Of a stretch of DNA of 64,000 bases, positions 1 through 14,619 are shown piece after piece. The notes below the pieces were generated by a model. That model searched no databases and was not told the DNA's origin. It worked only from the letters and a program-made list of their open reading frames with translations. The first letter of the stretch is position 1, and the number at the start of each line of letters is the position of its first letter. This DNA is from Methylotenera sp. (lineage in GTDB: Bacteria; Pseudomonadota; Gammaproteobacteria; Burkholderiales; Methylophilaceae), in NCBI RefSeq assembly GCF_030653755.1, contig NZ_JAURYU010000015.1:1-64000 (forward strand). Direction: 5' to 3'. Position numbers and translations under genes: made by a program.

Positions 1-1
1 A

Positions 2-808
2 CTGATTACTGACTCAGTCAACAAAACCGCAGAAGGCACCAAACAAGTAGAAAACGCTGGCGCCACCATGCAAGAAATCGTGACTTCGGTTCAACGCGTC
101 ACCGACATCATGGGTGAAATTGCAGCAGCCTCAGTTGAACAAAGTGCTGGTATCGACCAAGTGAATAATGCAATCACCAGCATGGACGAAGTGACGCAAC
201 AAAATGCCGCCCTAGTTGAAGAAGCCGCAGCGGCTGCCGAATCACTAGTTGATCAAGCAGTAGGGTTGATGGATACCGTCAGTGCTTTTAAGTTGAGTAG
301 TAGTGGGTCAAGTGTACAAACCAGACCAAACTTAAGAACAATTGCACAGCCTTCGCGTATTGTAGGCACGACATCAGCTCCTAAGCTAACCCATGATTTT
401 TCATTCGATGAGGCAAAGCATGCACATATAAAATGGAAAACTCGTTTGGTTGATTATATTGCAGGCCGTTCAAAAGAGCATTTGGAGGTAGAAAAAGTTT
501 GCCGTGATGATCAATGTCCATTAGGTAGTTGGATATATGGTAGAGCACAAAAGCATGCGCACACACCTGAATATAAAGAACTTAAAACTGCACATGCTGA
601 GTTTCACGAGAGCGTCGGGCATATAGTACGTTGCGTGCATGACCAAAGGCAAACAGAAGCTAAGCAACTACTTGGTGGTGAGTTCTCAAAGACTTCAAAA
701 CGAACAATCAATGCGATTGACGCGATTGAGACTGCTGTGCAAGCACGCTTGACAGCGCCATCTAAGGCAATAAGCAGTAAACCTGATGACGATTGGGCGG
801 AGTTTTAA
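2..808 (+). CDS. Methyl-accepting chemotaxis protein, 3' part, with C-terminal CZB zinc-binding domain
   Basis: The reading frame is open from base 2, so this is the 3' end of a chemoreceptor whose start lies outside the window. Codons before the first ATG (68) continue the alignment with the signalling domain of the receptor at 4145, so 68 is not the start. The first 75 or so residues are the end of the cytoplasmic signalling hairpin with its run of alanine and glutamate methylation-helix residues. A CZB (chemoreceptor zinc-binding) domain follows; counted from the ATG at 68, H120, C150, H176 and H180 have the spacing of the family's 3His-1Cys zinc site. The protein ends in DWAEF, which fits the W-x-x-F tether that CheR and CheB bind in other receptors. 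CZB domains are linked to zinc, pH or oxidant sensing; the ligand here is unknown. Confidence 0.93.
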   Translation: MITDSVNKTAEGTKQVENAGATMQEIVTSVQRVTDIMGEIAAASVEQSAGIDQVNNAITSMDEVTQQNAALVEEAAAAAESLVDQAVGLMDTVSAFKLSSSGSSVQTRPNLRTIAQPSRIVGTTSAPKLTHDFSFDEAKHAHIKWKTRLVDYIAGRSKEHLEVEKVCRDDQCPLGSWIYGRAQKHAHTPEYKELKTAHAEFHESVGHIVRCVHDQRQTEAKQLLGGEFSKTSKRTINAIDAIETAVQARLTAPSKAISSKPDDDWAEF

Positions 809-904
809 AGCACTCGTACAAATTGAAATTAGATGCGTATTTAGTAAGTTAATAACACTTTTAGCATTATTTAATTTGCCTAAAGTGCGAGAAAGAGTAA
901 AGCC

Positions 905-3900
905 ATGAAAATCAACATGCCAGTGACACAGCATGAATTAGCGCTTAATAGCACCCATCAAATCGTTTCTAAAACAGATTTGAAAGGAAGAATCACGTTT
1001 GTTAACAGGGATTTTGTTGAAATTAGTGGTTTTGCTGAGGATGAATTAATTGGACAAAGTCATAATATTGTTCGTCATCCAGATATGCCACCAGAGGCAT
1101 TTCAAGACTTATGGAGTACAGTTAAATCTGGTAAGCCATGGATAGGAATCGTTAAAAATCGTTGTAAAAATGGCGATTACTACTGGGTGGAGGCTGTTGT
1201 TTCTCCTGTAAAAGAAAGTGGTGTCTTGTCTGGTTTTATTTCAGTGCGTAAAAAAGCTTCTCCTGAACAAATTAAGGGGGCGCTTAACTATCACAGTTAC
1301 CTAAAAGAGCATCATAGTTGGTTAGAAGGCCTGATGACCAAAGTTAATAACTTTAGACGTAATTTCTCGCTAAAATCGAGAATTATTTCTATTTTTCTTG
1401 CTGTAGCCTTTACTTGCTTGGGTTTGGGCATTAATGGTTTGTATGGTATTCAATACAGTAATGATCGGTTGTCAACAGTTTACAACGACCGAGTAGTGCC
1501 CCTTCAGCAACTAAAAGTTGTTGCCGATATGTATGCAGTTAATATTGTTGATACCTCTCATAAGCTAAGGAATGGCAATATTAGTTGGAAGCAAGCGCAG
1601 CAAAATGTAGATGATGCAATTAACGCAGTTGATAAAAATTGGCAGGCATATACACAAACTTATTTAGTTGATGAGGAGGTAAGGCTTATCTCAGAAGCTA
1701 AACCACTCATTGTGCAAGCCAATCAAGCCACAGCTAAGTTAAAAGAAATTATAAGCACCCAAGATGAGGCATTGATTGCTGCTTTTACTATCAATGAGTT
1801 GTATCCATCTATTGAACCACTATCTGAAAAAATTAGCGAACTGACCTCATTGCAACTGGATATTGCTGCTAAAGAGTTTAGTTTGGCGCAGGAGAATTAT
1901 GATTTTAAACGTAATTTGAATATTTTTTTTATCTTGTTTGGTCTATTAATAACAGGTTTCCTAGGTCGGCAACTCTACTGTGCCATCATGCCACGTATTC
2001 GTATGGCAGTTGATTACTTAATGGCAAGTGCGCAAGGTGAAGATCATGATTCAGTATTGAGGACAGGCCATCGAGATGAAATGACGGATGTAATGGATGC
2101 GTACAGAGCATTAAAAACACGTATAGACTTTGACTATACAGATACCTTAGCAGGAGTAGATCGCATCAAATCTGCATTGGACAATGCATCTATTCCAGTT
2201 ACTGTCGGAAATGAAATCAATAAGCTAATTTACATGAACAAAGCTGGATTTGCACTTTGGGAAAAAATGAGTGCAAATATTGTGAAATTACATCCTAATT
2301 TTTCAGTAGAGAAAATGATTGGAGGCACTTTAGGCAAATATATTGAGAATGAAGTGGATCGTGCATCTTATGTTGAGGAGCTTAAAGGAAGTAAGGTACT
2401 TGAGACTACAATGGCTGGACGACATTTAAGACTTACTTTTAACCCTGTACATAATGCAGACGGTCATTATCTTGGACGCATGATTCAATGGGATGATCGA
2501 ACAGAAGAGTTGATCGCTGAACAAAGTATTGCGCGTTTAATCGAGCAGACGGTTGCAGGTGATCTTACAAATAGAATCAACGCAACACAGTACCCCGATG
2601 GCTTTCTTAAGGATATCAGTATTGGTATGAATAAACTCTTAGAGGCAGTCATTGGGCCTCTGAATATGGCAGCAAGTTATGTAGATAATCTTTCAAAAGG
2701 AGTGATTCCTGCAGAGATTACAAATGACTACAGTGGTGATTTTAATATCATTAAAAGCAATCTTAATGCTTGTGGATTAGCGATTAAGGCATTAGTTGCA
2801 GATGGAAATTTACTAGCAAAGGCTGCTGGAGCTGGGGACTTAAATGCACGTGCAGATGCATCTAAACATCTAGGGGAGTATCGTAAAGTAATCGAAGGGC
2901 TTAACGCTACGCTTGATGCAATTATTGAGCCTTTAAATATGGCCGCTAATAGCGTAGAGGATATTGCCCGTGGTGACATTCCTCAGCCAATTACAAATCA
3001 CTATAACGGTGATTTTAATAAAATTAAAGATAACTTGAATACTTGCTTTTCTGCTATCAGCGCTTTAGTTGCAGATACCAAAATGCTTTCTGATGCGGCT
3101 GGGGAAGGTAATGTGTCAGTGAGAGCTGATGCGGACCAACATTCTGGAGATTTTCGAAAAATTGTTGAGGGTGTAAATAATACACTTGAGATGATTGTTG
3201 GCCCAATAGCCACTGTTAAAATGTCGATTGAGACCATTAATACAGCTGCAAAAGAAATTGCACAAGGTAATTCTGATCTATCACGTCGAACAGAAGATCA
3301 AGCCGCCTCACTAGAAAAAACAGCGGCAAGCATGGAAGAGCTTTCTTCAACAGTGAAGCAAAATGCCGACAATGCCAAACAAGCCAATCAGCTTGCTACA
3401 GCAGCCTCTGATGTAGCGGTTAGAGGTGGGGTGGTTGTTTCTGAAGTAGTCACGACTATGGCTAATATTAACGAAAGTGCTAAGAAAATTGAAGACATTA
3501 TTAGTGTGATTGATGGCATTGCTTTTCAAACTAATATTTTAGCGTTAAATGCAGCGGTTGAGGCAGCAAGAGCAGGAGAGCAAGGCCGCGGATTTGCCGT
3601 TGTAGCAGGTGAAGTGCGTAACTTGGCACAACGCTCAGCCTCTGCTGCCAAAGAGATTAAGATGCTTATCACTGAGTCAGTTACTAATACAAATGTCGGG
3701 ACAGTGCAGGTAGAAAAAGCTGGTAATACAATGCATGAAATTGTTACATCAGTTAAGCGAGTAACAGATATAATTGCTGAAATATCTGCTGCATCACAAG
3801 AACAAAGTGTTGGTATAGAGCAGGTAAATGAAGCCATCATGAAGATGGACGATGTGACACAGCAAAATACAGCACTAGTAGAAGAAGCGGCTGCAGCTGC

Positions 3901-3988
3901 AGAGTCTCTAATGGATCAGGCCGACGAGTTAATGAACGCAGTTAGTGTATTCCAGTTAGGTACGCTTACATCACGTAATGTGTCTTAG
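905..3988 (+). CDS. Aer-like PAS chemoreceptor (methyl-accepting chemotaxis protein)
   Basis: A 1027-residue receptor. Residues about 25-115 form an Aer-type PAS domain ([27 protein letters not shown]), which in Aer binds FAD and senses redox state. A membrane segment lies at about 160-182 and a second at about 338-362, enclosing a helical region that is probably periplasmic. A HAMP segment, a second PAS-like module (about 418-540) and at least two HAMP-like repeats (the PLNMAA...G.IP..I...Y.GDFN pattern) follow. The signalling domain fills about 777-1015, with the conserved hairpin tip around [20 protein letters not shown]. It ends early, after [12 protein letters not shown], without the W-x-x-F CheR tether of its neighbours; a decayed version of that tail lies just downstream. 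Energy or redox taxis is the likely role by family. Confidence 0.93.
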
Positions 3989-4006
3989 GTACTCTAGTAA
4001 TGTATT

Positions 4007-4080
4007 AATATCGCTTCACTATCCCTGTTAAAGTGAGTGTAAAAACTAGCGTGGATGATGGCGATTGGGAAGGTTTTAAA
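4007..4080 (+). pseudogene. Detached, out-of-frame chemoreceptor tail (lost CheR/CheB tether)
   Basis: The DNA here closely matches the last coding bases of the receptor at 4145 (its 6706-6781). Read from 4024 it gives P-V-K-V-S-V-K-T-S-V-D-D-G-D-W-E-G-F, the same linker and W-x-x-F end. It lies after the TAG at 3986-3988 and in another frame than the 905 receptor. Single-base losses relative to the intact copy occur near 4015-4025 and in the GAAG(A)GTTTTAA end. I read this as a once-coding tail cut off by a stop and frameshifts, not as a gene. Confidence 0.75.
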
Positions 4081-4144
4081 AATGTAGTTGTGTTTAAAAG
4101 ATTCACTGGTAAAAATATTTTGCAAGTTTTATAGAGGAAGTTTT

Positions 4145-6781
4145 ATGTTTAAGAATATGCATGTTGCAACTAAACTCTGGTTTGGCTTTATCGCTATATT
4201 AGTATTAATGGCCTTATTGATCATGATTGGTGTTAATAAAGTTAATTCTATTAATAGTAATTTGACAGAAATCAGTGATGTGAACAGCGTTAAGCAGCGT
4301 TATGCAATTAACTTTCGAGGCAGTGTTCATGATCGTGCAATTTCATTACGTGATGTGACATTAGTGCAAGATGAGGCTGTTTTAAGCACGGTGCTATCTG
4401 ATATTGATCGCTTATCTCAAAACTATGTTGATTCAGCTAAGCCATTAGATGAAATGTTTGCTAGTGGTACGGAGGTTTCTGATGATGAGCGTGCGATACT
4501 TGCTAGTATTAAAGAAACTGAAGCTAAAACACTCCCGCTCATTAAAGAAGTTATTTCTCGCAAGCAAGTGGGTGATGAAGAAGGCGCTAAATTAATCTTA
4601 ATGAGCGAGGCTAGACCATTGTTCGTTGAGTGGTTAGCTAGAATTAATCAATTAATTGATTTAGAAGAGTCAAAAAATAAAGAAGTTACCGTTGAAGTAA
4701 GAAGTTCTGCTAAAAACTTTCAACAAACAATGTTCTTATTATTTGCGGTTGCGTTACTAATTGGTATTACTTTTGCGACACTTATTACAAGAAATATTAC
4801 TCGTCGAATCGCTGTTGCTACCGATGTGGCTGAGAATATCAAAAATGGCAACATGGATGTACAAATTGATGCAAGTTCAAAAGATGAAATTGGCACAATG
4901 CTCCTGCAAATGCAGTCAATGTCTGATACGCTGAAAACGTTGTCTGTAGAAATTGTAGATATGGCAATTGCACAAGATAAGGGTGATACAGACGCGTTGT
5001 TACATGTAAGCAAATTTCAAGGTGCTTATAAGCAAATGGCAGAGCGTATTAATGCATTAGTTTCTTCTAATGTAGAGATTAGCAATCAATCAATGGCAGT
5101 GATTAAAGAGTTCGGTCAAGGAAATTTTGATGCGCCATTAAAACCATTTCCTGGTAAAAAATCTTCAATTAATACTACAATTGAGCAGGTAAGAAGTAAT
5201 ATCAAGACCTTCATCGCTGAAATGCAGCATATGTCTGTGCAGCATGATTTAGGTGAAACTGATGTAGTGATAGATACCTCCAAATTTAAAGGTGCTTACC
5301 TGCAAATGTCTCAAGGTGTAAATGCGATGGTAGGTTCACATTTGCAAGAGAAGTCTGAGATGATTCAGATAATGCGTGCTTTGGGTGATGGTGACTTTAA
5401 TGCGCAAGTGAAACAGTATCCAGGTAAGAAAGAAGAAATCAACAAAAGCATTGAGCGTTTAGAGGGTAAGCTAAAAGGGATAGTAGATTCAGTAAAATGG
5501 GTGACGAATGAACATGCACAAGGCAATATTGATATGAATCTGCATGCGCACTTGTTCAAAGGTGGATTTTCTGAGCTAGCGATGGCGGTCAATGCGATTG
5601 TTGCAGGACAGCTTGAATTAACAGAAAAAGCCCTTGCTTGTGTTAAAGCCTTTGGTGAAGGTGACTTTGATGCACCACTGGAGCAATTCCCAGGCAAAAA
5701 AGTATTTGTGAACGAAGCGATTGAACAAGTACGTACTAATTTAAAAACCCTGAACGAAGATGCCCAATTGCTAGCGGACGCAGCCCATGATGGCCGAGTT
5801 ACTGTACGTGCAGATGCTGGTAGGCACCAAGGTGACTATCGTAAGATTGTGAATGGCATGAATGAAACACTAGAAATGATTGTTGCACCGATTGTGACAG
5901 TTCAGCAATCAGTAGAAACGATAAACACGGCAGCACGAGAGATTGCACAAGGTAATGCTGATTTGTCACGACGTACCGAAGAGCAGGCAGCCTCACTCGA
6001 AAAAACAGCCGCCAGCATGGAAGAGTTATCCTCTACCGTGAAGCAAAATGCCGACAATGCTAAACAAGCCAACCAACTAGCAACAGCCGCTTCAGGCGTT
6101 GCTGTCAAAGGCGGTGTAGCCGTGTCAGCAGTCGTCAGCACCATGGCTCAAATTAACGAAAGCGCCAAGAAAATTGAAGACATCATTAGCGTGATTGACG
6201 GCATTGCTTTCCAAACCAATATCTTAGCGTTGAACGCAGCAGTTGAAGCGGCAAGAGCAGGTGAGCAAGGTCGCGGCTTTGCAGTGGTGGCAGGAGAAGT
6301 GCGTAACCTAGCACAACGCTCAGCCTCAGCTGCCAAAGAAATTAAAGAACTGATCACAAACTCAGTCAACAAAACAGCAGAAGGCACCAAACAAGTCGAA
6401 ATGGCTGGTGAAACGATGCAAGAGATCGTCAGCTCAGTCAAACGCGTATCAGACATTATTGGAGAAATCTCAGCAGCTTCACAAGAGCAAAGTGCTGGTA
6501 TTGAGCAAGTGAACGAAGCCATTATGAAGATGGATGATGTCACACAGCAAAATACAGCCTTAGTAGAAGAAGCGGCGGCAGCGGCGGAATCGATGATGGA
6601 GCAAGCAGATGAGCTAATGAATGCTATTAGTGTGTTCCAGTTAGGGACGCATAATGAAAGTAAAGCATCGCGTAATGCGCCAAAAATAGTTGCGAGTAGG
6701 GTTACGAATATCGCTAGACCAACCCCTGCTAAAGTGAGTGTGAAAACTAGCGCGGATGATAGCGATTGGGAAGAGTTTTAA
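4145..6781 (+). CDS. Methyl-accepting chemotaxis protein with poly-HAMP region
   Basis: The ATG at 4145 is preferred over the longer frame from TTG 4088, because TAGAGGAAG stands just before it and [15 protein letters not shown] is a normal receptor start. The protein has 878 residues: TM1 at about 11-30, a periplasmic four-helix-type domain, TM2 at about 193-215, and HAMP. An unusually long chain of HAMP-like units follows (about 218-575), in which the pattern GxFDAPL..FPGKK recurs three to four times. The signalling domain (about 592-832) is nearly identical to those of its neighbours. It ends in DWEEF, fitting the W-x-x-F tether for CheR/CheB. Chains of HAMP domains usually relay and tune signals between membrane and hairpin tip. 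The ligand is not predictable. Confidence 0.93.
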
Positions 6782-6872
6782 AAAGTGATTTTATTCATCG
6801 GTGTGCCTAATGGTTTACAATAGAGGGTAATCGTTGGCAAACAGCTAACTTTGAAAGATTAGGTAAGGTGGT

Positions 6873-6926
6873 GAGTGTAGCGTTATCCACCATATGTAAG
6901 TAATAATTGGCAGTAACGCTACACTC
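6873..6926. repeat. Perfect 13-bp inverted repeat upstream of the Fae-like gene
   Basis: GAGTGTAGCGTTA (6873-6885) is matched by its exact reverse complement TAACGCTACACTC (6914-6926), with a 28-base spacer. No T-run follows, so a simple terminator is unlikely. It lies 63 bases before the start of the Fae-like gene and could be an operator for a dimeric regulator or an mRNA hairpin separating receptor and Fae transcription. Confidence 0.6.
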
Positions 6927-6988
6927 GACTGCTAAGTGTAACAAAGAAGTTAATTTTGAAATTTATTTAGAAGTTCTAGGAGACTGAA

Positions 6989-7555
6989 ATGGCTGTTATT
7001 GATCGTGTATTAATTGGTGAGGCATTAGTAATTGAAGATCGTCCAGATGGTAGTGGTTTAGATCTTAAAAATGTAGCTCACATTGACCTTATCATGGGCC
7101 CACGTGGTAGCGCTGCAGAAGATGCATTTTGTCGTACACTAACGGATCAAAAAGAGGGTGTAAATGGCTTGTTAGCTATTGTTGCTCCTAATATGATGGT
7201 AAAACCAAACACAGTAATGTTTAACAAAGTGACTTTGAAAAACACTAAACAATCACTACAAATGTTTGGCCCAGCACAACGCGGTGTTGCGATGGCTGTA
7301 ATGGATTGTGTAGCTGATGGCACAATTCCGGTTGAAGAAGCTGATGATGTATTTATTTCTGTAGGCGTGTTTATTGACCAAACTGCAGATATGGATGACC
7401 GTATCCAAGATTGGAACTACCGTGCTACTAAACAAGCGATTAAAAGCGCGATTGCACGTGAGCCAAAAGCTGCTGATTTGTTGAAAGTTTATAAAGAATC
7501 TGCACATCCTTTTGCTGCAAAAGAAGGCAACAGAAGATCAACAGATAAGGCGTAG
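6989..7555 (+). CDS. fae: Formaldehyde-activating enzyme (Fae) family protein
   Basis: A 188-residue protein with the Fae signatures: RVLIGEALV at the start, VAHIDLIMGPRGS with the conserved histidine, LLAIVAPN, KPNTVMFNKV, QMFGPAQ.GVAMAV, and HPFAA near the end. Fae condenses formaldehyde with tetrahydromethanopterin in methylotrophs. Differences from the canonical enzyme as I remember it are a longer loop before the AHIDL motif, R in place of H after GPAQ, DQ in place of HW after GVFI, and a short polar C-terminal extension. It may therefore be a divergent paralogue (Fae2/Fae3-like) and not the main catabolic enzyme. TAGGAG at 6976-6981 is a good ribosome site. It stands alone between receptors and cheR, with gaps of about 200 and 350 bases, inside a chemotaxis cluster. 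Family assignment is firm; present-day function is open. Confidence 0.93.
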   Translation: MAVIDRVLIGEALVIEDRPDGSGLDLKNVAHIDLIMGPRGSAAEDAFCRTLTDQKEGVNGLLAIVAPNMMVKPNTVMFNKVTLKNTKQSLQMFGPAQRGVAMAVMDCVADGTIPVEEADDVFISVGVFIDQTADMDDRIQDWNYRATKQAIKSAIAREPKAADLLKVYKESAHPFAAKEGNRRSTDKA

Positions 7556-7909
7556 TAGTAATAGATGTGATATGGAGCAATGTTTTAAGATGAAAGTGTC
7601 GGGTAAAGCCAGTTTTAATTAGTTTGTCGATATTTGCATCTTGCATTGCTACCTTGTCATATTGCACAAGTAATTAGATAGAATAATAGATTTATCGTGA
7701 AATTAATCACTAATTTAAAGTGGTTAAGTTTCTTATAGATATATTCAGTATGTTGATATTGCCCATAAGTAATAAAAAGTTTAAGTAAGTAGTTAATAGC
7801 AACATAATTAAAAATAATAAAATGAAGAGTGCCCAAAGCATATTGCTAAAGTGCTTAGTACCAAACTGGTACAGTAAGTGACTTACAATAATTACGTGGT
7901 GAATATTTA
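7556..7909. other. 354-base AT-rich spacer before cheR, no gene seen
   Basis: No convincing reading frame on either strand. A short interrupted palindrome, GTACC-AAACT-GGTAC, lies at about 7859-7873, some 40 bases before the cheR start. It could be part of a regulator site; nothing else stands out. Confidence 0.5.
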
Positions 7910-8794
7910 ATGTTTAAAAAAGAGCAGCATGATGAGGGGCGAGAGTTTAATTTTACTGCTCAAGATTTTGCTAGAGTACGTCACTTAATCTACCGTCATG
8001 CTGGTATCTCACTATCAGAAGCTAAGTCTGATATGGTATATAGCCGTATTGGCAGAAGACTTCGTGTTTTAGGTGCTACATCTTTTAAACAGTATCTAGA
8101 TAACCTAGAAAACAAAAACGATCCTGCCGAATGGGAGGCGTTTACTAATGCGCTTACAACAAATTTAACGTCTTTTTTTCGTGAAGAGCATCACTTTCCT
8201 ATCCTTGCAGATCATCTGCATTCATTAAAAAAACCTATCCGTATATGGTGTTCCGCAGCATCTACTGGAGAAGAGCCATACACAATTGCAATGACAGCGT
8301 GTGAAGCTTTTGGGAGTTTAAATCCTCCAGTCGAAATTATCGCTACTGATATTGATACCAATGTATTGATAACTGCGTCACGTGGAGTTTATCCTTATGA
8401 ACGAGTCAGTAAACTTTCGGATGCAAGACGCAAGCGCTTTTTTTTAAAAGGCTCAGGGCCTAATGAGGGTTCTGTTGCGGTTAGAAAAGAGCTGAAAGAG
8501 ATGATTACTTTTAGACAGCTTAATCTGTTAGAAGAGAACTGGGCATTGCAAGAGCCATTTGATGCAATATTTTGTAGAAATGTAATGATTTATTTTGATA
8601 AACCTACACAGTCAAAGATATTGAGCCGATTTGTGCCGTTAATGAAGTCTCATGCATTGCTATTTGCCGGTCACTCAGAAAACTTCCTTTATGTGTCAGA
8701 TGCTTTTAATTTACGAGGTAAGACGGTTTATACCCTAGGTGATAATAATCATATAAAACGCACAAATAATGCGGTTAAAGAGAGATCATCATGA
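7910..8794 (+). CDS. cheR: CheR chemoreceptor glutamate methyltransferase
   Basis: A 294-residue protein of usual CheR length. The N-terminal all-helical domain contains IYRHAGISLSEAKSDMVYSR; the methyltransferase domain has FFREEHHF, the SAM-binding loop SAASTGEEPYTIAM, the acidic ATDID motif and FDAIFCRNVMIYF. CheR methylates glutamates on the receptor hairpin, raising kinase activity and giving adaptation. Two receptors in the cluster end in a W-x-x-F tether that CheR could bind. The stop overlaps the cheD start (ATGA), so the two are co-transcribed and probably translationally coupled. Confidence 0.97.
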   Translation: MFKKEQHDEGREFNFTAQDFARVRHLIYRHAGISLSEAKSDMVYSRIGRRLRVLGATSFKQYLDNLENKNDPAEWEAFTNALTTNLTSFFREEHHFPILADHLHSLKKPIRIWCSAASTGEEPYTIAMTACEAFGSLNPPVEIIATDIDTNVLITASRGVYPYERVSKLSDARRKRFFLKGSGPNEGSVAVRKELKEMITFRQLNLLEENWALQEPFDAIFCRNVMIYFDKPTQSKILSRFVPLMKSHALLFAGHSENFLYVSDAFNLRGKTVYTLGDNNHIKRTNNAVKERSS

Positions 8795-9399
8795 GTATGT
8801 TGGAAGAGGAAGTTTCAACGACTTTATATTTTGATAGAACCTTTGATTGTGAGGCAGCTAAGATAGCGCCTGGTGAGTATTATTTTACTGATAAAGATAT
8901 GGTCATTGTGACAGTACTGGGGTCGTGTGTGTCGGCATGTATACGAGATAGTAAAACAGGCATAGGTGGTATGAACCACTTTATGTTGCCTGATAGTGCT
9001 GCTGCAGATAAAGATAGTCCGATTTCGGAGTCTATGCGATACGGTACCTATGCCATGGAGGTTTTAATTAATCAACTGTTGCGCAATGGAGCGCGACGTG
9101 AAAATTTAGAAGCGAAAATATTTGGTGGAGGTAACGTTTTAAAAAGCTTTACTACGACCAACGTTGGTGATCGTAACGCTATTTTTGTAAGAAAATACTT
9201 GAGTGCAGAGGGAATTCGCATTATAGGTGAGGATTTGTTAGATATATATCCAAGAAAAGTGTATTACTTTCCTAAAACAGGCCGTGTTTTAGTGAAAAAA
9301 CTCAAACAAATGCATAATGACACATTGTTTAAACGTGAAGAAATTTACGCGAGCAAGCTTAAAACGACGGATGTCGGTGGTGCAATTGATTTGTTTTAA
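8791..9399 (+). CDS. cheD: CheD chemoreceptor glutamine deamidase
   Basis: A 202-residue protein starting in an ATGA overlap with cheR. It shows the CheD active-site region: LGSCVSACI with the catalytic cysteine, GGMNHFMLP with the histidine, and EAKIFGGGNVL. CheD converts receptor glutamines to glutamates and so prepares methylation sites. The length is typical. cheB begins 40 bases after its end, completing a methyltransferase-deamidase-methylesterase set. Confidence 0.97.
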   Translation: MSMLEEEVSTTLYFDRTFDCEAAKIAPGEYYFTDKDMVIVTVLGSCVSACIRDSKTGIGGMNHFMLPDSAAADKDSPISESMRYGTYAMEVLINQLLRNGARRENLEAKIFGGGNVLKSFTTTNVGDRNAIFVRKYLSAEGIRIIGEDLLDIYPRKVYYFPKTGRVLVKKLKQMHNDTLFKREEIYASKLKTTDVGGAIDLF

Positions 9400-9439
9400 C
9401 TATTAAATTGAATAAGCAACAAGACGCGAGAGTAAGCAA

Positions 9440-10510
9440 ATGAAAATTAAAGTACTTGTTATTGACGATTCAGCACTGATTCGTAGTTTACTTACTGAGA
9501 TTATTAACGACCAAAAAGACATGATGGTTGTAGGCGCTGCACCAGATCCATTGATTGCACGTGAGATGATTAAGCAATTAAATCCAGATGTGCTAACGCT
9601 TGATGTTGAAATGCCTAAGATGGATGGATTAGACTTCTTAGAAAAACTGATGCGTTTACGCCCAATGCCTGTAGTTATGGTGTCAACACTGACAGAAAAA
9701 GGATCAGAAATCACTATGCGCGCATTAGAGTTAGGCGCAACAGATTTTGTGACTAAACCGAAAATGTCAATCACAGAGGGGATGCTTGAGTACACTGAGC
9801 AAATTACGGATAAAATTCGGGCTGCGTCTCAAGCTAAAGTTTCGTCACCTAGTCGCCATGCAGTTGCGGCAAACTCTGAAAATCGCCCAGCTCAATTACG
9901 TAATCCATTGATTAGTAGTGAAAAATTATTGATTGTTGGTGCCTCTACAGGTGGCACTGAAGCAATTAAGTCATTTTTGCTACAAATGCCCTCAGATTGT
10001 CCTGGTATATTGATAACTCAGCATATGCCGGCAGGCTTTACAAAATCTTTTGCAAATAGACTAAACTCTTTATGTCAAATATCCGTTAAAGAAGCTGAAG
10101 GCGGTGAACGTATTTTACCTGGGCATGCTTATATTGCGCCAGGTGATAAGCATTTGTTGTTAGCAAGAAGTGGTGCAAATTATGTAACAGAGTTGAGTGA
10201 TGCACCTCCTGTCAATCGTCACAAGCCTTCAGTAGATGTGTTGTTTGATTCAGCCGCATTACATGCAGGTAAAAATGCTATTGGTGTAATTTTGACGGGA
10301 ATGGGTAAAGATGGTGCAGTAGGCATGGCTCAAATGAAGAAAGCAGGTTCATATAACTTTGCTCAGAATGAGGAAAGTTGTGTTGTGTATGGCATGCCCA
10401 AAGAGGCAGTAGTCCATGGTGGGGTTGATGAGGTGGCACATCTAAATGACTTGCCAAAATTAGTACTTAATCATCTAGTAGCAAATAACACCAGAGCACT
10501 ACGTGTTTAA
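9440..10510 (+). CDS. cheB: CheB protein-glutamate methylesterase response regulator
   Basis: A 356-residue two-domain protein. The receiver domain has [12 protein letters not shown] and the phosphoacceptor in [11 protein letters not shown]. The C-terminal methylesterase domain carries the serine motif [10 protein letters not shown], the histidine in TQHMPAGFT and the aspartate in [11 protein letters not shown]. CheB removes methyl groups from receptors when phosphorylated by CheA, opposing CheR. No ORF follows for about 200 bases, so cheY may have its own promoter. Confidence 0.97.
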
Positions 10511-10710
10511 AGCTTTGCAGATTACTGACGTCTAACTATGTTTTTGTAGACCTGAGCCTGAGTCTTCTAGTTAATAGAGCAGGTTTCAAAATAAGACAGT
10601 ACAATATATAAAAAATTATAGAATTTATTCATTTTGTTAATATGTAGGTTTAAATTTGGAATACTTTAAACTTGGAACACAATGAGTAGTTAATGTTAAT
10701 GGAGTGGAGC

Positions 10711-11109
10711 ATGGCAAATACAAATACTAAATTTCTTGTTGTGGATGATTTTTCTACGATGCGTAGAATTGTTCGCAACTTGCTTAAAGAGCTAGGCTAT
10801 ACCAATGTGGATGAAGCTGAGGATGGTGTTGCAGCATTGAGCAAACTGAAAGGCGGTGGTTTTGAGTTTGTTGTATCAGATTGGAATATGCCTAATATGG
10901 ATGGCTTAACCTTGCTGCAAAATATTCGTGCAGATGCTGAATTATCTAAACTCCCTGTACTGATGGTAACCGCTGAAGCGAAAAAGGAAAATATTATTGC
11001 GGCAGCGCAGGCTGGCGCCAATGGTTACGTAGTAAAGCCTTTTACAGCTGCGACGCTTGATGAAAAGCTGTCAAAAATATTTGAGAAGCTTGAGAAAGCG
11101 GGAGCTTAA
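10711..11109 (+). CDS. cheY: CheY chemotaxis response regulator
   Basis: A single receiver domain of 132 residues. I start it at ATG 10711 (MANTNTKF) and not at the in-frame ATG 10693, because GGAGTGGAG at 10701-10709 is a well-placed ribosome site and the shorter form matches CheY length. [16 protein letters not shown], the phosphoacceptor in [21 protein letters not shown] and VVKPF are all present. Phospho-CheY binds the flagellar switch. cheZ follows after 2 bases, so the pair forms one operon. Confidence 0.97.
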
Positions 11110-11111
11110 TT

Positions 11112-11801
11112 ATGACCAGCGAAGGCACACACCAACAAGCTGTCAACGTTGATTCTTCAGTTGGGATGTCATCAAGTGATGAAATTCTTAACCGTGTAGG
11201 CCACGTAACGAGAACCTTGCATGATAGTTTAAGTGGGTTAGGCTTAGACAAGATATTAGAGCAAGTTGCGCAAGATATTCCAGATGCACGTGATCGTTTG
11301 GCTTATGTAGCACGTATGACGGAGCAGGCTGCGGAGCGTGTTTTAAATGCAACTGACGTAGCAATTCCGTTACAAGAAGAGCTTGCGTCTGGTGCAACCA
11401 TACTGCAAGAGCGCTGGAAAACCGTAATGAGTGAACCATCGTTAAAGAGCGAATATAATTTGGCTGCAAATGAGACGCTAACTTATTTAACAATGGCAGG
11501 AAAAAATACAGCTGAAACCAAAGCCTTATTGATGGATATCATGATGGCGCAGGACTTTCAGGATTTGACTGGACAGGTAATTAAAAAAATCACTGGCTTA
11601 GCCCAAGATTTGGAAAAGCAGTTGGTACAGTTGTTAATTGACTTTTCACCAGCAATTCCTAAGAAAGACTCGGAAGCAAACAAAGCAGAAGCTGGTAATA
11701 GTTTATCGCTATTGAATGGACCACAAATTGACCCTGATGCTGTGGATGTTGTTGCTAGCCAAGAGCAAGTTGATGATTTATTAGATAGTTTAGGGTTCTA
11801 G
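11112..11801 (+). CDS. cheZ: CheZ phospho-CheY phosphatase
   Basis: A 229-residue mostly helical protein. The catalytic region MMAQDFQDLTGQVIKKI carries the glutamine that attacks phospho-CheY in the family, and the C-terminus VDDLLDSLGF is the typical CheY-binding amphipathic tail. CheZ terminates the swimming signal. It is the last gene of the chemotaxis cluster and is followed by an inverted repeat. Confidence 0.96.
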   Translation: MTSEGTHQQAVNVDSSVGMSSSDEILNRVGHVTRTLHDSLSGLGLDKILEQVAQDIPDARDRLAYVARMTEQAAERVLNATDVAIPLQEELASGATILQERWKTVMSEPSLKSEYNLAANETLTYLTMAGKNTAETKALLMDIMMAQDFQDLTGQVIKKITGLAQDLEKQLVQLLIDFSPAIPKKDSEANKAEAGNSLSLLNGPQIDPDAVDVVASQEQVDDLLDSLGF

Positions 11802-11818
11802 TAACTAACACTAAAAAT

Positions 11819-11860
11819 AAGCATCCGTTAAAAACGTCTTGCCACTATTAATGGATGCTT
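11819..11860 (+). terminator. Hairpin after cheZ
   Basis: AAGCATCCGTTA (11819-11830) pairs with TAATGGATGCTT (11849-11860) over 12 positions with one G-U pair and an 18-base loop. Only a weak T-rich stretch follows, so termination may be partial. Its position 17 bases after the cheZ stop suits the end of the chemotaxis transcript. Confidence 0.5.
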
Positions 11861-12068
11861 GTTAATCGTTACCTTCTACTTTAGTTTGATTACGGATTAG
11901 ACGCCCATATCAAGCTCTGTAAACTCTCTTTTACAAGTGAGTTGTTAGATCAGATTGAGAGCAGTTCAGTTTATACTAATATCTTGGCATGTTAGGGAGT
12001 TTTATTCTCTCTATTAACACCTCTAAAGCTAACCTCAAATTACCTGCGACTGCAATTACAAATGTTAA

Positions 12069-12614
12069 TTAATTTGCTGACACTTCTATGCTTTTTAAGT
12101 CATCAATGATTTGTTGAGAGTGATTTGAAACATCCACGTTGTTATAGATTTTGATTATTTTGGAATCTGGATCAATCAAAAATGTGTAGCGTTTTGCTAT
12201 TTTAGTGAAGATTAGATTGGTAAGCGCGTGGTAAGCATTTGCTACATTACCATCAGTATCAGCGAGTAAAGTGAATGGTAGATGATATTTCTCGGAAAAC
12301 TTCTGATGAGAGGCTTCTGAATCAACGCTAACTCCAATCACCTTAGCATTCAATTGTTCTAATTTAGATAAATCATCTCTAAAGTGACAAGCCTCTTTGG
12401 TGCAGCCTGGCGTATCATTTTTAGGGTAAAAATAGAGTACTACATATTTCCCTTTATAATCAGATAGAGTATGTTCGCGACTTTTAGTGTCTTTTAATTT
12501 GAAATCAGGGGCATTTTCACCAATATTCAGACTCGGGTGCATAGATGAAAAATGGCGGTAGCCTAAAAATGCAACGATTATGATCGCTACATAGAATAAA
12601 ACTTTAATTAACAT
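12069..12614 (-). CDS. Membrane-anchored peroxiredoxin, Bcp/PrxQ type
   Basis: A 181-residue protein. Residues 1-20 (MLIKVLFYVAIIIVAFLGY) are a membrane anchor or uncleaved signal, so the enzyme probably acts on the periplasmic face. The peroxiredoxin domain has APDFKLKD, FYPKNDTPGCTKEAC with the peroxidatic cysteine and a second cysteine five residues on, typical of atypical two-Cys PrxQ, and FLIDP. It reduces hydrogen peroxide and organic peroxides using thiol donors. Cytoplasmic Bcp lacks the anchor, so this is a secreted-type member of the family. It stands alone, convergent with the chemotaxis cluster. Confidence 0.9.
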   Translation of the reverse strand: MLIKVLFYVAIIIVAFLGYRHFSSMHPSLNIGENAPDFKLKDTKSREHTLSDYKGKYVVLYFYPKNDTPGCTKEACHFRDDLSKLEQLNAKVIGVSVDSEASHQKFSEKYHLPFTLLADTDGNVANAYHALTNLIFTKIAKRYTFLIDPDSKIIKIYNNVDVSNHSQQIIDDLKSIEVSAN

Positions 12615-12730
12615 ACAATAACTCTCGTTTGATTTTGTTCGATAATGTATAAATCTACCAGAATGTAGACATTATTTGTTTTTTCAGTCATAACAAACGT
12701 ATGACATTATTACATTTAATCACGTAATGT

Positions 12731-12758
12731 TTTATTTAGCACATCTAGGCTTTATAAT
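12731..12758 (+). promoter_or_regulatory. Probable sigma-70 promoter of tRNA-Arg
   Basis: A perfect TATAAT lies at 12753-12758, 16 bases before the first base of the tRNA. A weak -35 candidate (TTTATT, 12731-12736) is 16 bases upstream. The -10 match and its distance to the RNA start support the call; the -35 is poor. Confidence 0.55.
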
Positions 12759-12774
12759 GCTGCACTAAATATTT

Positions 12775-12850
12775 GCCCCCGTAGCTCAGTGGATAGAGCA
12801 TCCCCCTCCTAAGGGGAGGGTCACACGTTCGATTCGTGTCGGGGGCACCA
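12775..12850 (+). tRNA. tRNA-Arg(CCT)
   Basis: A 76-base cloverleaf with encoded CCA. The acceptor stem GCCCCCG (12775-12781) pairs with CGGGGGC (12840-12846); discriminator A, then CCA. The anticodon stem TCCCC/GGGGA encloses the loop CTCCTAA, giving anticodon CCT (12808-12810), which reads AGG. The T-arm has the usual GTTCGATTC. Confidence 0.97.
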
Positions 12851-13020
12851 TGATCAAATCTGGCTTATTGGTGTTGTGGTCACTTGCTATTCAGCGCTTT
12901 AACTTGCAATCTTTGCTTAACAATTTTCGCTTAAATAGTGCAATAGATTGGTTTGAACGTATTTTATTAACGCATTTTATGTAAAGAGCTTGGCAGCTGA
13001 TTACTCACAAACCAATAACA

Positions 13021-14619
13021 ATGACACCAATATTACTCCAAAGATTAGCTTTAGCCCTATTTTCATTATTGGCTGTTTTTATTCTGGTCACGTTTAAGCA
13101 GTACGGGATTAGCAATGACGAGCAAGTGCAACATGTCTATGGGCAATTATTGCTCAATTTTTATAGCACGGGTTTTGCAGATCAGGCCGCTTTTACTTAC
13201 AAAAATCTATATTTGTACGGCGGACTATTTGATTTAATAGCCGCCATTCTAGAAAAAATTCTACCACTTTGGGTATGGGATATTCGCCATTTGCTTTCAG
13301 CCTTGTTTGGTTTGGCTGGAATCGTGGCTGTTTATAAAATCACCAATGAACTTGCTGGGTTACGTGCTGCTTTTCTAGCTGCATTTTTACTGACCATTAC
13401 AGGCGCTTGGACTGGTGCGATGTTTACGCATACCAAGGATGTGTCTTTTGCATCTTGTATGGTGTGGGCGCTGTATTACACGTTGCTGATGTCTAAACAA
13501 TTACCTCGTATTCCTTACGTCTTGAGCTTGAAGCTTGGTGTTGCTGTGGGGATGGCGTTGGGCTTGAGGATTGGCGGTGCATTTGCCGTTATTTATTTGC
13601 TTTTAATGGTTTTTGTAGCAGGCTTATTAAATACTAAAGATTTGAAACAGCAATTGAATTTTTATTGGCAGTGTTTTTTAAGCTTAATACCTGCAGGGGC
13701 TGTGGCTTTTTGCTTAATGGCTATTTTCTGGCCATGGTCTGTGATGGGGGCTGATCACATTTTAATTGCTGTAAAGTCTTTCTCTCACTTCGCCTTTAAT
13801 ATGAACACTATAGTGAATGGCGAGTTTGTTAGTATTGGTGACGTACCACGTACTTACTTGTTTCAATATATGGGAATTAGATTGCCTGAGGTTTTTCTGC
13901 TCGGCTTGCTGAGCATTGTCTTAATTTTAGCGATGAGATTTAAACAGTTGAAGTTGGTCAATCAATTACCTGAAATTACAATTGCTATCGCTTTATTTAC
14001 GCCTTTGATTTTTGTGATTTTAGATCGTCCTGCACTTTATAATGGGGTAAGGCATTTTACTTTTGTGATTCCTACTTTAGCAATTGTAGCTGGTGTTGGT
14101 TTATCTAAAATGACTGATGTTCTAGCTGGCTATCTGAAATGGCGTGTATTTTTTGCAACCATATGTGTTTTATTGAGCATTAATACCATTTATGCACTAG
14201 TCGCTCTGCACCCTTATCAATACTTGTACTACAATCATTTTGCAGGGGTAGATTTTAAGGATGCACAACACGATTGGGAAGGTGATTATTGGTCCAGCAG
14301 TTTGATTGATGCGACGAAGATTTTGAAGCGACATGTTAATGCTCAGCCAATATCGAAGAATAAAGTTAATCCATATTTAGTCGCAGTTTGCGCCGAGGCT
14401 TTTCAAGGACAAGCATATTTAGACGAAAGATTTAAAGTGACAGAAGACTGGGTGGCCGCAGATTTCTTTATTTCTAGTACCAATATGAATTGCGATCAAG
14501 TGTTACAGGGTAAGATGGTTGGAGTTGTTGAGCGTCTAGGTACTCCGCTTGCTGTGGTTAAAGATCGTAGAGCGTTAATTGGTGAAGCGCGTAGACCGCA
14601 TCAAGCACCACGAGATTAA
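13021..14619 (+). CDS. Polytopic membrane glycosyltransferase, GT39/ArnT-like
   Basis: A 532-residue protein with about ten to twelve hydrophobic segments. The acidic N-terminal loop after TM1 (YGISNDEQVQHVYG) resembles the catalytic loop of GT-C enzymes of the PMT/ArnT type, which take sugar from a polyprenyl phosphate carrier on the outer face of the inner membrane. A soluble C-terminal part of about 120 residues follows. The next genes encode a GtrB-like sugar loader and a GtrA-like flippase, three bases and a 4-base overlap away, so this is likely the final transferase of that set. The acceptor is unknown. Confidence 0.8.
   Translation: MTPILLQRLALALFSLLAVFILVTFKQYGISNDEQVQHVYGQLLLNFYSTGFADQAAFTYKNLYLYGGLFDLIAAILEKILPLWVWDIRHLLSALFGLAGIVAVYKITNELAGLRAAFLAAFLLTITGAWTGAMFTHTKDVSFASCMVWALYYTLLMSKQLPRIPYVLSLKLGVAVGMALGLRIGGAFAVIYLLLMVFVAGLLNTKDLKQQLNFYWQCFLSLIPAGAVAFCLMAIFWPWSVMGADHILIAVKSFSHFAFNMNTIVNGEFVSIGDVPRTYLFQYMGIRLPEVFLLGLLSIVLILAMRFKQLKLVNQLPEITIAIALFTPLIFVILDRPALYNGVRHFTFVIPTLAIVAGVGLSKMTDVLAGYLKWRVFFATICVLLSINTIYALVALHPYQYLYYNHFAGVDFKDAQHDWEGDYWSSSLIDATKILKRHVNAQPISKNKVNPYLVAVCAEAFQGQAYLDERFKVTEDWVAADFFISSTNMNCDQVLQGKMVGVVERLGTPLAVVKDRRALIGEARRPHQAPRD

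Follow-up and report, generated by a model that had tools for sequence, protein, structure and literature searches.

Why does a gene for a formaldehyde-activating enzyme (Fae), an enzyme of C1 metabolism, lie among the genes of bacterial chemotaxis? The question is raised by a stretch of Methylotenera sp. DNA of 64,000 nucleotides (hereafter, the window), for which an initial annotation proposed that the Fae homologue acts as a formaldehyde or C1 sensor, or as a buffer, that feeds receptor signalling. Both the linkage of fae to che genes and the idea of sensing have already been published, in papers of 2013 and 2014 that cite one of 2011. In one passage, mmol_1253 of M. mobilis JLW8 is described as a fae within a sensing/chemotaxis cluster, with credit to Lapidus 2011, and an earlier proposal is repeated that Fae enzymes may serve in sensing, signalling or regulation (PMC3728764). 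Another reports that new Methylophilaceae carry one fae in a conserved chemotaxis cluster, as Methylotenera does (PMC4109929). Lapidus 2011 and Kalyuzhnaya 2008 are named here as cited within these two papers (PMC3728764; PMC4109929), in whose passages the linkage is accompanied by no more than a broad proposal that Fae may sense.

The features around fae are as follows, in window coordinates.

68 to 808, plus strand: 3′ part of a chemoreceptor gene, truncated at the contig start, with a CZB domain (Pfam) and the C-terminus DDDWAEF
905 to 3988, plus strand: chemoreceptor gene with PAS, 4HB, HAMP and MCP signal domains (Pfam)
4088 to 6781, plus strand: chemoreceptor gene with a 4HB, several HAMP and an MCP signal domain (Pfam) and the C-terminus DWEEF
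6867 to 6933, plus strand: strong hairpin in the receptor-fae gap, built on a perfect inverted repeat of 13 nt (6873-6885/6914-6926) that further pairs extend (z -4.4)
6989 to 7555, plus strand: fae, formaldehyde-activating enzyme homologue of 188 aa with an ATG start (PF08714, 207 bits; TIGR03126, 197.5 bits; catalytic-site residues kept)
7523 to 7552, plus strand: final 10 codons of fae (EGNRRSTDKA), a short remnant of the C-terminal tail typical of the che-linked clade, as judged against 103 Fae copies whose end could be recognised
7910 to 8794, plus strand: cheR (PF01739)
8791 to 9399, plus strand: cheD (PF03975)
9440 to 10510, plus strand: cheB (PF01339)
10693 to 11109, plus strand: cheY (PF00072, PRK10610)
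11112 to 11801, plus strand: cheZ (PF04344)
12069 to 12614, minus strand: peroxiredoxin gene (AhpC/TSA; Pfam)

Open reading frames, Pfam and NCBIfam bear out the arrangement from which the initial annotation started: fae is complete, is flanked by MCP genes and by cheR-cheD-cheB-cheY-cheZ, and shares the plus strand with all of them. A gap of 207 bp separates it from the gene upstream and one of 354 bp from the gene downstream. The DWEEF end of the nearest receptor is what we take to be a CheR-docking-type pentapeptide. The hairpin stops 55 bases 5′ of the fae start; the same gap holds a hairpin with z -5.7 in locus L005 and -2.9 in L008, and one of its pairs has changed on both sides between the window and L005 and is broken in L008. 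An Rfam scan of positions 1-14000 had as its sole match a tRNA gene 3′ of the che cluster (12775-12847), leaving the hairpin unmatched, and a scan around fae returned no terminator and one promoter, against 4.7 in shuffled sequences. A flagellar-type CheA was not found in the window's genome (G000), where the best match was a 1696-aa protein at 36%; FliM is present. As the window's contig (C35) starts inside a receptor gene, an assembly gap is the likely reason. In the close relative G060, CheA lies approximately 10 kb upstream of fae.

By every sequence test applied, the window protein looks like an ordinary H4MPT-pathway enzyme. Its two profile scores exceed their cut-offs (27 bits for Pfam PF08714 and 118 bits for NCBIfam TIGR03126, one_C_fae), and unlinked Fae orthologues of the family are 76-87% identical to it. 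The positions that we take to be the catalytic His and the H4MPT-binding residues (H21, D23, L52, K70, T72 and Q87 in 1y5y chain numbering) are intact in all 39 linked Fae copies, the window's included; these 39 linked loci comprise the window and 38 others among the best 80 named loci. For the fold, the orthologue L031 stands in for the window protein: its AlphaFold model (mean pLDDT 72.9) has the Fae fold, with 1y60/1y5y as its best structural matches. The enzyme is presumably active. The marker gene mch, the only one of the H4MPT pathway that was sought, was found in all 30 linked genomes of a sample of 120 (defined below) and lies at G000:C19:89647-90579 in the window's genome. Codon bias is stronger on average in fae than in its neighbours (mean ENC 42.4 versus 47.3-50.5 over the 39 loci with exact starts, a smaller contrast than the 40.7 versus 47.7-50.1 given by 14 selected loci whose starts were set roughly); the Fae value is the lowest of its locus in 24 loci and not the lowest in the other 15.

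The window's genome encodes four Fae homologues, the window gene among them. Two distant ones lack the catalytic His (Glu in L003, Met in L004) and may be of the Fae2/Fae3 type; under that working definition, no catalytic His, the type was rejected for the window protein, in which the His is present. The fourth, L001, is 58% identical to the window protein and retains the His, with Asp where others have Thr. Five further copies (L105, L106, L107, L108 and L109) belong to the same His-bearing subtype with Asp at the ligand-position Thr, which has a C-terminal extension of its own after HPLAAHDY. A family search of 11 linked genomes found 34 Fae homologues, of which 30 were read. In six of these genomes the linked copy is the sole His-bearing homologue read (one G130 homologue was unread), and in the remaining five a second, Asp-for-Thr subtype is present. 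In M. mobilis JLW8, according to a passage of an earlier study, the che-cluster fae is transcribed far less than another fae, mmol_2056 (PMC3728764); thus, the copy in the window's species may not be its main enzyme.

How widely is the linkage kept? Across 187 family genomes, with thresholds of E 1e-97 for Fae and E 1e-90 for CheD and with linkage defined as a distance within 3 kb, Fae lies no more than 3 kb from CheD in 48 of the 66 genomes with CheD. The window's genus accounts for 22 linked genomes out of 23, and in its lone unlinked member (G181) the contig starts 739 bases away from CheD; the genus that includes M. methylotrophus (g19) is linked in 22/22 (G075 and L044 have the same coordinates there), and four genomes elsewhere (G111, G083, G061 and G007) share the arrangement. 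In this conserved position beside the che genes, Fae behaves as a chemotaxis component does. The initial annotation had named a lack of conserved linkage in related genomes as an outcome that would speak against it; the linkage is conserved, so that objection falls. An earlier sample of 120 family genomes, with looser thresholds of 1e-65 (Fae) and 1e-50 (CheD), contained 30 linked genomes, all with both genes on the same strand and a Fae-CheD gap of 999-1266 bp, 21 genomes with Fae and CheD more than 3 kb apart, often on separate contigs, 19 with Fae but no CheD, and one, G022, with CheD but no Fae.

Fae lies near mch in 16 of the 21 genomes in which Fae and CheD both occur apart, and in the 120-genome sample as a whole unlinked Fae is within 25 kb of mch in 26 of 40 genomes, mostly at 2-7 kb. 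In the fae cluster of L045, Pfam identifies mch and an hps-type gene together with a methylene-H4MPT dehydrogenase domain; by sequence clusters, much of it is common to L053, L072, L099 and L100. Conversely, che operons without fae occur in L090, L101 and L102, in the order cheA-cheW-receptors-cheR-cheD-cheB-cheY-cheZ (cheW being named from order and size only, and cheA supported for G022).

The upstream side of fae is more variable than its junction with cheR. The nearest gene upstream is a receptor in 30 of the 39 linked loci, and in three (L008, L019 and L030) the contig ends too early for an assignment. L026 has a GGDEF/EAL gene directly upstream. In the five loci of the M. versatilis kind (L016, L018, L020, L022 and L023), an argininosuccinate synthase-cluster gene precedes fae-cheR (by Pfam for L016 and L018, by sequence cluster for the other three), and no receptor was found within 10 kb. 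Thus, fae stays with cheR even where the receptors have moved from upstream. In L016, a CHASE4/PAS/GGDEF/EAL gene follows cheZ. In ten Methylophilus loci, the receptor-fae gap is 51-57 bp and the distance from fae to the predicted cheR start 38-69 bp; these tight gaps make common transcription, and so joint expression of fae with the che genes, plausible in Methylophilus.

Fae and the che genes do occur without each other. Four genomes of the clade (G006, G117, G177 and G179) lack both CheD and FliM, and all four retain Fae; in the same search, FliM was found in 4/4 che-bearing genomes. A further genome, G180, also gave no CheD match and was left out of this count, its contig ending soon after cheR. 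A flagellar-sized CheA was not found in the four either, three of them having a long protein of 1,468-1,723 aa, and this is weak evidence because the window's own FliM-bearing genome gave the same result. On the other side, G022 has a che operon, FliM and mch, and its only Fae is a more distant homologue. The two are therefore not inherited and lost together in the manner of a chemotaxis component and its system. At 1e-65, no close relative of the window Fae was found in G022, G059, G077, G095, G106 or G116, all of which have mch; for G095, no Fae homologue at all was found.

When 87 Fae cores, trimmed of their tails, are placed on a tree, a single clade of 42 rows (support 100/97) takes in all 37 linked ones. 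The other five members are L011 (cut by a contig end), L077 (from G117), L043, L059 and L085 (from G006). Strict monophyly of the 37 linked sequences was rejected by an AU test (p 2e-8); we write of one clade of 42 because the named set of 37 omitted these five nested rows. No che genes lie at fae in L085, L043 and L059, and in all three a relative of the window's peroxiredoxin (cluster c37) directly adjoins fae; in L077 the che genes are absent and a receptor fragment adjoins it. The Fae tree alone would allow the group of G006, L059 and L043 to have split off either before or after fae moved. On the mch tree, G006 belongs to the window's genus (100/100), and this placement, together with the common peroxiredoxin neighbour, makes it the better reading that in this group the che genes were deleted and fae was left behind. 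The mch tree also has the linked G007 among unlinked genera, and G022 and G038 among linked genomes; a single move followed by vertical descent is accordingly not certain, and the AU test on that tree (p 2e-8) is no verdict on G006 by itself. In the che-gene tree, unlinked operons as one group were not rejected at 0.05 (p 0.055). Tree reconstruction gives at least two changes for the linkage and three for the RRxxD tail.

That tail is the second peculiarity of the linked copies, which extend past the usual ...HPFAAK end. Its pattern is NRRxxD followed usually by one or two A-[ILV]-x-x-M-[KRQ]-x-R-like motifs. RRxxD occurs in 36 of 37 linked versus 2 of 43 unlinked deduplicated rows (five rows were of undetermined linkage, and two without a recognisable end were left out), and in 26 of the 39 linked copies the extension reaches at least 28 residues, each with at least one of the motifs. 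The core has a pooled pN/pS of 0.07 and the tail one of 0.44; over 121 of 325 pairs (core pS 0.1-0.6), tail dN/dS has a median of 0.24 and exceeds 1 in two pairs. These values indicate purifying selection on the tail and are to be read as an estimate, as the pairs share parts of their history, tail pS (0.63) approaches saturation and the tail alignment is gapped. In 7/7 genomes searched, a tail query of 49 residues had no match other than Fae, within the limited reach of so short a query. Structure models of L031 and L044 are helical in the tail at a pLDDT of about 50-73. The xWxxF motif, which we take to be a known Che-docking motif, was not found in the Fae tails of the copies compared.

The tail is by no means uniform among che-linked copies. 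In the window it is a stub of approximately 10 residues (EGNRRSTDKA), so any docking would be weakened or lost in the window's species; across that species and its che-keeping relatives it measures 10-13 residues. It is absent from the linked L017, whereas L072 combines an RRxxD stub with a fae in the H4MPT cluster. Three of the four che-less clade members lack it, all three being one lineage, and the fourth, G117 (L077), has lost che and kept a stub. The tree offers two independent contrasts, of which one is concordant and the other shows no difference, and this makes the pairing of tail loss with che loss no more than suggestive. The receptor directly before fae/cheR often ends in VSNG rather than in the WxxF-type pentapeptide of other cluster receptors (e.g., L031:7335-9872, L044:7841-9943 and L090:10883-13450, the last from an operon without fae). 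This C-terminus was considered as a partner of the tail, a -G end, in most cases VSNG, occurring in 18/19 long-tailed and 2/9 short-tailed deduplicated loci; it was set aside because here too there are two independent contrasts, one of them concordant, and because the fae-free L090 has a VSNG receptor.

We consider it probable that the protein is a catalytically competent H4MPT Fae whose gene moved singly into a che operon, has mostly been inherited there, and carries a tail kept by selection. In the ancestor of the Methylotenera/Methylophilus group, fae would have left the H4MPT gene cluster as a single gene, landed beside cheR in a pre-existing che operon and mostly stayed there since, with the enzyme keeping its usual chemistry; the tail may dock it to some partner, possibly the chemotaxis machinery. 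The direction of the move is suggested by the unlinked orthologues near mch and by the fae-free che operons of L090, L101 and L102, which count for relocation. Against this reading, cheR adjacency in 48 genomes and the tight Methylophilus gaps hint at shared expression, and a selected tail that hardly occurs outside the linked clade hints that the protein does more than catalyse. The retention of fae beside cheR in the five loci without upstream receptors, the low M. mobilis transcript relative to mmol_2056 (PMC3728764), the 15 loci in which Fae does not have the lowest ENC, the placement of G007, the tail-less L017 and the L072 stub fit the reading poorly as well.

Of the other readings, pure co-regulation is a credible one to which we give somewhat less than even weight. 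Formaldehyde handling and motility would simply be expressed together, with the tail serving stability or an H4MPT-pathway partner, as the Methylophilus spacing and the fae-cheR junction in the five loci without upstream receptors suggest. In sediment, moreover, the M. versatilis 301 copy is reported to rise about 10-fold and the sensing/chemotaxis cluster is listed as over-expressed (PMC3728764). The M. mobilis copy, however, shows no such response in the same account (PMC3728764), and the window's gaps of 207 and 354 bp, the strong hairpin upstream and the differing average codon bias of fae and che genes also weigh against it. A chance gene order that has no function and persists through inertia would agree with the confinement of linked sequences to one clade and with che and fae each being found alone, but is rather unlikely: in none of the 48 linked genomes does Fae lie more than 3 kb from CheD, although the receptor side changes, and it was in this clade that a selected tail arose. 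We regard as most improbable a stronger version of the initial proposal, that the protein has given up metabolism to become a dedicated formaldehyde sensor. Its position among che genes, the second His-bearing Fae (L001) of the window's genome and the low M. mobilis transcript relative to mmol_2056 (PMC3728764) would suit such a sensor, but the catalytic positions are intact, the linked copy is the sole catalytic-type homologue read in 6/11 linked genomes, and Fae is retained where che is absent. A sensor or buffer dedicated to receptor signalling found no support, given an active-type sequence that is kept in 4/4 genomes without CheD and FliM, and given that in 21 of the 120 genomes Fae and CheD lie apart, 16 of them with Fae near mch. 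What stands of the sensor idea is the conserved linkage, and with it a possible secondary role of Fae in taxis to which the clade-specific tail is the best lead.

Such a secondary role would make Fae an H4MPT-pathway enzyme of dual function: docked by its tail to a receptor or Che protein, it would let the motor respond to formaldehyde or to H4MPT loading. The distribution of RRxxD, the estimated selection on the tail, its restriction to Fae in the seven genomes searched with the short query, its loss in three of four che-less members (a single lineage), its helical models and the retention of fae beside cheR where receptors are not all point this way. We nevertheless think it unlikely, as the contrasts number two and only one is concordant, the tail is 10-13 residues in the che-keeping window species and relatives and absent in L017, the che-less G117 keeps a stub, the tails lack xWxxF, and the N-terminal part of the adjacent receptor is variable (24-59% when compared with that of L031, the closest relatives of L031 aside). 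In addition, Methylobacterium aquaticum without fae1, fae2 and hgd is reported to retain formaldehyde taxis (PMC10613068). More doubtful still is a specific form of this idea, in which, for Methylophilus and long-tailed Methylotenera, one or two docking helices per Fae subunit would hold the enzyme at a chemoreceptor or Che protein, formaldehyde activation would itself become the taxis signal, and the window's lineage would have shortened this tether to a stub. If true, it would mean a central metabolic enzyme wired into the chemotaxis array. To return to the reading that we prefer, the comparison separates a fairly settled part, a housekeeping-type enzyme that occurs also without chemotaxis, from two less settled points, the selected tail of the che-linked clade and the persistence of the fae-cheR junction while its surroundings change. 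The tail offers a testable handle on whether a formaldehyde enzyme also aids food-finding.

Among known systems, MtpA, the formaldehyde-taxis receptor of M. aquaticum 22A, also ties formaldehyde to chemotaxis; however, MtpA is a receptor and the window Fae an enzyme, and formaldehyde taxis in M. aquaticum needs neither fae1 nor fae2, according to the passages concerned (PMC10613068). The Fae2/Fae3 homologues share a Pfam family with the window Fae, and the window's genome has two distant homologues at other sites. M. mobilis JLW8, with mmol_1253, and other Lake Washington Methylophilaceae have the same kind of gene and cluster, from which the window gene is not known to differ, and the tail goes unmentioned in the passages that describe them (PMC3728764; PMC4109929); no report of a Fae tail was found in the open-access literature searched. 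The closest parallel to the protein itself is Fae of Methylorubrum extorquens AM1 (1y5y/1y60), which belongs to the same family and has the same catalytic and ligand positions, the L031 model showing 52% identity to it and a TM-score of 0.75-0.80 by target length. Nine extra residues before the catalytic His set the linked copies apart from the M. extorquens enzyme and are common to unlinked Methylophilaceae Fae (e.g., L045 and L050), whereas the C-terminal tail and the place of the gene beside cheR distinguish the linked clade.
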